Below, in pieces: positions 35,096-37,396 of a DNA stretch of 64,000 nt. A program made the position numbers and the translations under genes. Location: positions 124,001-188,000 of the forward strand of contig NZ_WWNE01000006.1 in assembly GCF_009909615.1 (NCBI RefSeq), given 5' to 3'. The DNA is from Acidiluteibacter ferrifornacis (GTDB taxonomy: Bacteria > Bacteroidota > Bacteroidia > Flavobacteriales_E > Vicingaceae). A model generated the notes under the pieces. That model did not search any database. It was not told the origin of the DNA and was given only the letters and a program-made list of their open reading frames with translations. Each line of letters starts with the position of its first letter. Within the stretch, counting starts at the first letter, position 1.

Positions 35096-35136
35096 GCAGC
35101 GAAATGAATGTAAACCCTCCGAGAGTTAATCGCTGC
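35096..35136. repeat. Hairpin enclosing an imperfect palindrome
   Basis: GCAGCGA (35096-35102) pairs with TCGCTGC (35130-35136). Inside lies AACCCTCCGAGAGTT (35113-35127), itself close to palindromic (AACnCTCnGAGnGTT). The reverse complement of this 15-mer occurs at 37382-37396. It lies just after the stop of the type B gene but has no T tract, so it is not a standard terminator. Confidence 0.7.
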
Positions 35137-35146
35137 TAAAATATCC

Positions 35147-36940
35147 CTACCTCAACAAACTCAACGTCCCTTTATACGTTTCTCCATCGTGTTTGATGAT
35201 GTAGAAATAGACTCCGCTTGCGACGTTATTCCCGTACCATGACGGGCTGTTTTTCCATTGAGCCACTTCCATGCCCCATGCATTAAAAAGGGTAACTTCT
35301 ATTGGCAAACCTTTGGTATTGCCCAACTCCCAAGTGTCGTTGACTCCATCACCGTTTGGGGTGAAAATGTTGGGGATAATTAACACACAATGATTTACAT
35401 GTACTTCTATTTTACTTCGTTCTTCGGCGACACAATCATTAATCTCCGTTTCTAAATAATACACTTGGTTATTGGTGACTTTAAACGAATACTCAAATCC
35501 TTGAAAAAATGGATTGGTTGCTGTTGCGGAGTTGTACCAATTTAGGACAGAAAGTTTTTCTGCAAACTGCGGTACAATGGTTTGAGTGGTGTTTTGACAA
35601 AAAAGCATTACTGTGTCTTTTAATTTTGGAGGAATATTCTGAATAACTTTAAGAGTATCTGAAAACAAGCTATTGCAAACGCTCAACCGATAATACATTG
35701 GATTAGCACTAGGAATATGATTGGCAGAATCTCCTGCTGTTATGTTGTCCCAAATGGTTTGATTGCTGCTGTATTGCCACTGTGTTGAACCATTGGAATT
35801 GTTGCTGTACAAGTTCACGCTTTCTCCTTTACAAATGGTATCTGCTGAAATAGCAACAGAACCAACAGCATGATTGGGAACAATAGTAGTGTCCCATTGA
35901 TTGTTGGAGCTCACCTCATCTCGATTAAACGTTGCCGTTACGCTCAATTCATAATTAGCTCCTAAAGTTGTAAAATCTAACCCTTGAATTGGAATTTTTG
36001 CGGTACTACCTCCAAACAATGCTTCTGTAGGGATGGGATTGTAGCTATTGGAACTCACTTCTTGATTTATCGTTTGCACCACAAATCCGTTCCGTTTAAC
36101 AGTAGTAGTAATGCGCAAGGTATCTTGCGTAAAGTCCAACCATTCTTCCCCAGTATTGGTGTAGTTGATAGTAACATCTACAGGACTAGTGTAACAAAGC
36201 GCAGAATCCAACTGCACAGAAACAAGATTGCCATCATAGCTCAAAGGCAATGTTGCACAACTGCCTAAATAGAGGTTGTCTATAAAATAGTACGTGCCGT
36301 AATAACTGTCTTCGCTTTTGCTCCCTCCCACATAAAGTGTATCAATTGCTGTGGTGTCATTGAAATTACCCATGGTCAACACTTTTTCTCCACCTGCTGC
36401 TTTATAGGTATGGTTGTATACTGCCCATTTTTTGGTTTCAGTAATGTAGCTGGATTGAGAAACAATGATTTGAGGTGAATAAGGTAAATGAAAGTTAGAA
36501 GTAGAGGAAACCCTATTGTTGGACAAATAAATACCCAATTGATTGCGAGAAGCATATTGCATGGAATCCGGTAGGTTCACATGAATCCGAAAACAATAGA
36601 TAGAGTCCGTAATTAAGATTTGGTTTAAATCACATTGAATGTAATTTCTATTGGCTTTAATAAGTTTAAATAAATAATATATTTCAATTCCAATATACTT
36701 CGATCCTTTTTGAGGATATTGATAACCAAAAAGACTTTGTGGAACTGTCCAATATTGATCGTGAAATTCATTGTAATATTCAGGTTGGGTATTCAATCCG
36801 CCTGCTAATCGCCATTGATTAGGCAATGAGTAACCCCATCCTGTTTTTGAGGTATCCTCAAAAGAAAAATTAGGGATTAAATTTTGGGCGGTGCAAAGCA
36901 CCGCCCAAAACAAAATATTACTGGTTAAAAAGGTTTTCAA
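35147..36940 (-). CDS. Secreted protein with T9SS type B (gliding-motility-associated) sorting domain
   Basis: 597 residues. The signal peptide (KTFLTSNILFWAVLCTAQ) leads to a jelly-roll-like N-terminal domain (LIPNFSFEDTSKTGWGY, a carbohydrate-binding-like start), then CARDB/Ig-like regions (near 245-360 and 360-430). The C-terminus is a type B sorting domain: IPNIFTPNGDGVNDTWEL, VTLFNAWGMEVAQW, GVYFYIIKHDGETYKGTLSLLR. Such proteins are surface-anchored or secreted by T9SS. There is no ATG: the frame starts with TTG at 36940, immediately after the TAA of the remnant T9SS gene upstream, so the two were once probably an operon. The ligand is unknown. Confidence 0.9.
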   Translation of the reverse strand: MKTFLTSNILFWAVLCTAQNLIPNFSFEDTSKTGWGYSLPNQWRLAGGLNTQPEYYNEFHDQYWTVPQSLFGYQYPQKGSKYIGIEIYYLFKLIKANRNYIQCDLNQILITDSIYCFRIHVNLPDSMQYASRNQLGIYLSNNRVSSTSNFHLPYSPQIIVSQSSYITETKKWAVYNHTYKAAGGEKVLTMGNFNDTTAIDTLYVGGSKSEDSYYGTYYFIDNLYLGSCATLPLSYDGNLVSVQLDSALCYTSPVDVTINYTNTGEEWLDFTQDTLRITTTVKRNGFVVQTINQEVSSNSYNPIPTEALFGGSTAKIPIQGLDFTTLGANYELSVTATFNRDEVSSNNQWDTTIVPNHAVGSVAISADTICKGESVNLYSNNSNGSTQWQYSSNQTIWDNITAGDSANHIPSANPMYYRLSVCNSLFSDTLKVIQNIPPKLKDTVMLFCQNTTQTIVPQFAEKLSVLNWYNSATATNPFFQGFEYSFKVTNNQVYYLETEINDCVAEERSKIEVHVNHCVLIIPNIFTPNGDGVNDTWELGNTKGLPIEVTLFNAWGMEVAQWKNSPSWYGNNVASGVYFYIIKHDGETYKGTLSLLR

Positions 36941-37129
36941 TTATTCAATGATTAGTTTACCGCTTTCAACAGCAGCATCGTTAGAAACAATACGATAAAA
37001 ATAGATCCCCGGTTGCACGGCATTTATTTTTAATTGATGCGTATTGGTTGCAGTTAGTCGTTTAACTAACTGCTGCTTGCCCAATACATCGTACAACTCA
37101 AAAGTAACGTTTTCTTGATTGAATTGACT
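36941..37129 (-). pseudogene. Remnant of a T9SS type A protein gene (C-terminal domain only)
   Basis: The minus strand encodes 62 residues from just after a TGA (37132-37130) to a TAA at 36941-36943, with no start codon. The translation contains NVTFELYDVLGKQQLVKRL, AVQPGIYFYRIVSNDAA and SGKLIIE, the central and final strands of a type A sorting domain; the usual YPNP start and the whole mature protein are missing. Upstream, similarity stops at about 37130 where the hairpin-rich element begins. I infer a deletion or insertion that removed the body of a secreted-protein gene. Confidence 0.8.
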
Positions 37130-37143
37130 TCATCCTTGTGTTC

Positions 37144-37313
37144 TTTTGGCTTGACCCAAAATGAACCAAAAAGTCAAGTCTCTGAGTTTCCTTCTGCTGA
37201 TTCCTTCCTAAAGTCTAAGACCTTCGCCGGATCTCCTCAATTCTTCGGAGCTAGACGAACTTTCTAAGACTTTAGTTCAAAATCCTTGAAGAATCCTCTA
37301 GGACAACTTCAAG
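37144..37313. repeat. Hairpin-rich non-coding element
   Basis: Consecutive inverted repeats: TTTTGG (37144-37149) / CCAAAA (37156-37161) interleaved with CTTGAC (37150-37155) / GTCAAG (37173-37178); a 13-bp arm at 37208-37220 pairing with 37263-37275 with one mismatch (CTAAAGTC/GACTTTAG); and CTTGAAG (37285-37291) / CTTCAAG (37307-37313) with inner TCCT/AGGA. No coding frame covers it. The segment TTGACCCAAAATGAACCAAA resembles an interspersed element I recall from other Bacteroidota genomes, but there is no second copy in this window. From 37314 to the DPP11 terminator I see only the 15-mer at 37382. Confidence 0.6.
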
Positions 37314-37381
37314 ATGGAGATTTGATAAAAATAGAGACTATATTGTACGTGGCTTAAAGTTAGCATCTTAATTCCAATGCG

Positions 37382-37396
37382 AACTCTCGGAGGGTT
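37382..37396. repeat. Inverted copy of the 15-bp imperfect palindrome
   Basis: AACTCTCGGAGGGTT is the exact reverse complement of 35113-35127. The two copies bracket about 2.3 kb holding the type B gene, the T9SS remnant and the hairpin-rich element. No transposase lies between them. Confidence 0.65.

Follow-up and report, generated by a model that had tools for sequence, protein, structure and literature searches.

An eroded T9SS gene beside one copy of a gene-free structured repeat of Bacteroidota

The best-known small interspersed repeats are those of Proteobacteria and streptococci. Among related elements, MITEs are short, non-coding, multicopy and moved in trans, and the non-autonomous derivatives of IS200/IS605 have ends that are set by a folded single-strand structure. 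For Bacteroidota, parts of PMC6006769 describe RAYT subclass 2.6, whose genes are flanked by atypical structures that have copies elsewhere in the genome and that lack the GTAG/GTGG foot.

The locus studied here lies in a window of 64,000 nucleotides, the whole stretch of DNA that was analysed (G000:C19:124001-188000), from Acidiluteibacter ferrifornacis (G000, the home genome; 3.52 Mb, 22 contigs). Two things meet in it: the old loss of a gene from a duplicating array, and a single copy of a structured repeat that carries no gene and occurs across Bacteroidota. We propose, with a probability of roughly 0.6, that positions 37139-37307 are one copy of a non-autonomous structured mobile repeat found across Bacteroidota, and that deletions in the array shaped the locus.

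The type A remnant and the history of the locus

We identified the final ~58 residues of a T9SS type A sorting domain at 36941-37129 on the minus strand, ending in a stop codon at 36941-36943. The remnant matches TIGR04183 (40.7 bits, cut-off 23) and PF18962, yet the domain is incomplete (profile positions 17-71 of 72) and its frame contains no usable start, in agreement with a preliminary description that had called it an eroded T9SS gene. Homology to the type A domain stops just short of the repeat. The TAA of the remnant abuts the TTG start of a 597-aa T9SS type B gene (35147-36940, minus strand; TIGR04131 and CHU_C matches), a contact that had also been recognized correctly.

The type B gene has three full-length paralogues in the home genome (75, 76 and 49% identity). 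The same genome encodes an intact 327-aa paralogue ending in a type A domain, and the coding start of this gene contains a run of nine G, a possible slippage tract (L003 near 1300, minus strand). A type A remnant directly precedes the 75% and 76% type B paralogues and the 327-aa gene, the three cases examined. In a genome of the same genus (G001), an intact 320-aa gene, its type A domain complete, lies directly before a type B homologue; the two frames meet at the stop, and the type B homologue carries one in-frame TAA. Type A genes of this kind form tandem arrays in several relatives. Because of the intact pair in G001 and these arrays, gene order supports the earlier proposal that an upstream type A partner of the type B gene was lost here.

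Within the type B gene, the part that encodes the signal peptide contains a perfect 13-bp hairpin (36882-36910, minus strand). A protein motif retrieved 33 homologous starts. In 17 of them the fold is 2 or more standard deviations better than in synonymous recodings, through hairpins that differ in stem sequence and occupy the same codons; in 12 control stretches, taken from four other genes for secreted or exported proteins in the window, the strongest value is -1.9. This hairpin, possibly a translational or recombination signal, is separate from the repeat finding.

The junction between remnant and repeat is common to the window and to C19:99 kb, C19:237 kb and C19:239 kb. Since it recurs at these three other home loci, the gene was truncated before the array was duplicated. 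At both C19:99 kb and C19:237 kb the repeat adjoins a type B gene at its 3' end. These two copies share with the window a spacer (37308-37331), the blastn match ending at 37331 in each. Insertion had been suggested as the origin of the remnant. The element is real, but a simple interruption does not fit, as the N-terminal part of the type A gene was not found on the far side of the repeat and the junction is present at the three other loci. The locus was probably made by insertion plus deletion and not by a fresh insertion.

Alternatively, plain deletion may have made the remnant, with the repeat as an unrelated bystander at the breakpoint. Deletions struck this region repeatedly. At the syntenic site in G001, which has ~190 bases between a peptidase stop and the type B start and no repeat, the remnant is reduced to at most four codons, and of the type B gene only the two ends are left. 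At C20:190626 the remnant is shorter and has no match nearby to R1, our model of the repeat. Both sites favor plain deletion, but the presence of a junction within ~10 bases of the repeat end at four home loci makes a bystander repeat distinctly unlikely. As this alternative concerns the remnant only, it can coexist with the mobile-repeat reading.

We infer from these comparisons that the spacers of the ancestral array already held remnant and repeat, and that a deletion upstream of the repeat came later at this locus. In this scenario, deletions would have removed gene bodies from an ancestral tandem array of genes for secreted proteins, and an old event would have joined the end of a type A gene to the repeat. 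The resulting junction would have been duplicated together with the array, and a later deletion would have removed the unit upstream of the repeat, 37331 marking the deletion point.

The preliminary description also considered the region to be bracketed by a 15-mer, which is indeed present as exact inverted copies at 35113-35127 (plus strand) and 37382-37396 (minus strand). The bracket itself is not supported. Neither copy coincides with an end of the element, and chance alone yields an expected 0.45 comparable pairs per window (40 shuffles); an equally GC-rich pair was found in 0 of 40 further shuffles, with a GC filter chosen after seeing the pair. With no further exact copy in the genome, and a single one with a mismatch, we rejected the 15-mer as an element end and judge both copies to lie outside the element.

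Extent, distribution and fold of the repeat

The repeat copy occupies 37139-37307 on the plus strand (169 bp, TGTTC...GGACAAC), as delimited by alignment ends and by R1, which was built from ten home copies and scores 182.3 bits here (G000:C19:161139-161307). It is ~90% identical to the copies at C19:237 kb and C19:99 kb. The hairpin-rich element previously placed after the break in homology is confirmed as such, and homology ends just before it, but it starts at 37139 rather than 37130 and ends at ~37307. When 13 home copies were aligned with their flanks, homology began sharply at TGTTC and ended near GGNC, and the ends coincide with those of the predicted fold. The flanks are unrelated, except for array copies and copies that share a duplicated sorting-domain end. 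R1 has 20 matches in the home genome at E<1e-4, of which ten are the training copies. The expected multiple genomic copies with the same ends were thus found, which supports the earlier idea of a small non-autonomous element.

Copies of the family are about 170-205 bp long and carry no gene. R1 matches were detected in 47 of 60 genomes (relatives, with the home genome included; E<=1), up to 46 in G030 being the maximum, and in 48 of 296 genomes of the phylum at E<=1e-5, with nine candidates per genome scored. Four single-contig genomes of the genus of G057, G150 among them, have 9-15 matches each (E<=0.01). The exact 42-base head pattern occurs in 43 stretches from a collection of ~85,000 species genomes. 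Every one belongs to a record that bears the name of a Bacteroidota lineage, and we take these genera to belong to this phylum; Chryseobacterium accounts for the majority. Viral contigs gave no exact match to the head pattern, and plasmids gave a head match of 39 bases only, in three Parabacteroides records. A literature search by topic and by the letters of the repeat, with most subscription journals outside its scope, found no description of it.

Some copies occur in larger arrangements. Eight matches in one orientation lie inside 4 kb at G150:C1:1823082-1826969, with similar clusters in G271, G313 and G079. At L009:1453-1776, L155:2047-2343 and L156:2030-2390 the repeat core is nested within a larger unit, which ends in inverted TTGTYCRAT...ATCGGACAA in L155 and L156 and shows one such end in L009. 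The core copies have no terminal inverted repeats, and inverted ends are confined to the larger unit in these three compared copies.

Where three consecutive hairpins had been described, we find instead one 5' pseudoknot and one long imperfect hairpin. The pseudoknot head (37139-37178, plus strand) consists of stem 1, TGTTCTTTTGG / CCAAAATGAACC, and stem 2, TTGAC / GTCAA, with compensatory changes in both; as the loop of stem 1 takes part in stem 2, the head is an H-type pseudoknot. The long imperfect hairpin that closes the repeat (37178-37304, plus strand) is a predicted fold with covariation. For ten copies, RNAalifold predicted 45 pairs, of which 21 show double-sided compensation. When the pseudoknot is added (50 pairs, ten copies), 92.4% of cells pair, compared with 80.7% in shuffles, and none of 500 shuffles reaches 92.4%; sliding the partners by 1-3 columns lowers pairing to at most 56%. 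In an alignment of 42 copies from many genomes, fitted to the model, double-sided changes affect 40 of the 45 pairs (405 such cells versus 129 in shuffles).

A test that depends less on the model used pattern-free positions in 72 distinct pattern-found heads. The top pair of stem 1 is Watson-Crick in 69 of 72 (TA 30, CG 20, GC 15, AT 4) and the inner pair of stem 2 in 67 (AT 49, TA 12, CG 6). More distant heads have stem 2 changed to CTTGGC/GCCAAG. Wobble cells (G-T 66, A-C 40) favor the head-first strand only modestly, and the count therefore does not separate RNA from single-strand DNA.

Genomic placement and the search for a partner enzyme

The repeat is almost exclusively intergenic, with an ORF of at least 100 aa overlapped by more than 60 bp in only 3 of 56 copies examined. 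Orthologous sites without the repeat exist in G001, and in the fabI neighborhood (gene name assigned by eye) it is present in 3 of 15 loci and absent from 12. Because copies are almost only intergenic and are missing from some orthologous sites, we conclude that the family spreads, and the sharp ends, the dispersed copies and the empty sites speak for mobility. No target-site duplication was found, the filled and empty fabI sites being too diverged for a clean comparison. Several copies multiplied merely by duplication of their surroundings. Eleven of the 20 home copies adjoin sorting-domain genes or fragments (recognized by eye, except for the window remnant); they form about four related groups, and plain duplication therefore explains part of the spread. 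One locus, L008:1130-1672, is a broken chimera of two sorting-domain ends, in which the 3' half of a domain plus the downstream repeat matches L012 and is joined out of frame to another domain, which suggests recombination inside sorting-domain coding ends.

We considered whether the repeat, instead of being a mobile parasite, may be a multicopy non-coding RNA or RNA-regulatory family with a cellular function that duplication has spread. The covariation of both pseudoknot stems is typical of RNA, and a T-G pair in the outer stem is kept in 10 of 10 home copies. However, among 52 copies with both neighbors visible, 18 lie between convergent genes, 5 between divergent genes, 18 in co-directional pairs opposite to the repeat and 11 in pairs co-directional with it. 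These mixed orientations argue against a role as leader or terminator, which would keep to a single gene strand, and they fit no cis element. In addition, upstream flanks differ, so that no common promoter is evident, Rfam gave no gathering match in 20 loci (and none within the repeat at E<=1), and the repeat is present or absent at orthologous sites. An RNA family is unlikely.

On average, coding around the repeat lies mostly on the other strand (mean 0.375 on the same strand, p 0.004), although the 50 copies used were hand-chosen and non-independent. Its orientation relative to GC skew is not significant (p 0.19), and relative to the chromosome arm it is mixed in single-contig genomes, where a dnaA-like start was seen by eye in 2 of 8 contigs (G141, G400).

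Same-orientation clusters, such as six copies in G471 and nine in G271, raise the idea of an integron-like (attC-like) recombination site between exchangeable genes, and attC sites do act as folded single strands. The genes between copies, however, resemble ordinary polysaccharide and housekeeping genes, no recombinase or integrase was recognized by eye at seven loci, and the L332 cluster holds both orientations. We regard an attC-like role as extremely improbable.

The atypical structures described for RAYT subclass 2.6 in parts of PMC6006769, together with the three PF01797 genes of the home genome, could indicate that the repeat is a REP of this subclass. R1 lies near only 1 of 15 RAYT loci (G030:C86, 1.2 kb away), and most of nine compared RAYT flanks have short GC-rich palindromes of their own. 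G020 has 16 repeat matches and no PF01797 match. It is therefore very unlikely that the repeat is such a REP. At L190-L197 (G000, G001, G010, G030), the flanking GC-rich palindromes are ~25 bp long, for example around CGGACTGCAAGTCCG and GCGCGATTGTATCGCG, and are likely the REPs of this RAYT subclass.

A further 26 PF01797 loci showed no significant R1 match (best E 0.15), and RAYT and IS200-type TnpA were rejected as partners, as no link connects R1 with PF01797 loci. Reverse transcriptase (PF00078) is present in 6 of 25 genomes searched and absent from G000, G020 and G030; all three bear the repeat, and this candidate was also rejected. When 568 neighboring ORFs were clustered, no recurring mobile-element protein was recognized among the 40 clusters listed.

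We suggest that the repeat may move as a folded single strand, either DNA or RNA, and that this strand would be recognized by a putative enzyme supplied from elsewhere. The fold would then persist because copies that do not fold are not copied. In its strongest form, the family might be a selfish nucleic acid found throughout Bacteroidota, an element without genes that propagates by means of its own folded pseudoknot-hairpin and is mobilized by a putative enzyme not yet recognized. This version is speculative and quite unlikely, but if true, the family would amount to a SINE counterpart in bacteria or to a minimal transposon recognized by structure.

Comparison with known repeat families

One conserved pseudoknot fold across the phylum, many copies and known filled and empty sites make the movement of gene-free repeats directly testable. 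The repeat also explains part of the unannotated intergenic DNA in these genomes. It may perhaps underlie assembly breaks, as one home copy (C19:515390) lies near a contig end and adjoins a run of N.

Like MITEs, the repeat is short, non-coding and multicopy and, if mobile, would be moved in trans; unlike them, its core has no terminal inverted repeats. No target duplication was found at the diverged filled and empty sites compared. Ends defined by the fold and insertion without obvious duplication resemble non-autonomous IS200/IS605 derivatives, but no ends are shared at the 26 PF01797 loci. With the REPs of RAYT subclass 2.6, as far as parts of PMC6006769 describe them, it has in common that it is structured, repeated, strand-asymmetric and found in Bacteroidota. 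It differs from them in lying away from RAYT genes, in having no GTAG-type foot (it begins TGTTC) and in being much longer, at 169 bp.

ERIC sequences, or enterobacterial intergenic repeat units, are likewise gene-free, one to two hundred bp long, imperfectly palindromic, intergenic and dispersed. The repeat described here is itself dispersed, intergenic and an imperfect palindrome over its full length, but ERIC belongs to another phylum, and the likeness proposed here is one of behavior. ERIC is not known to have a pseudoknot head. Since the repeat departs from RAYT-associated REPs, MITEs and IS200 derivatives in the features tested, we file it as a new variant among structured interspersed repeats, best read as ERIC/REP-like in behavior rather than as a demonstrated member of either family.
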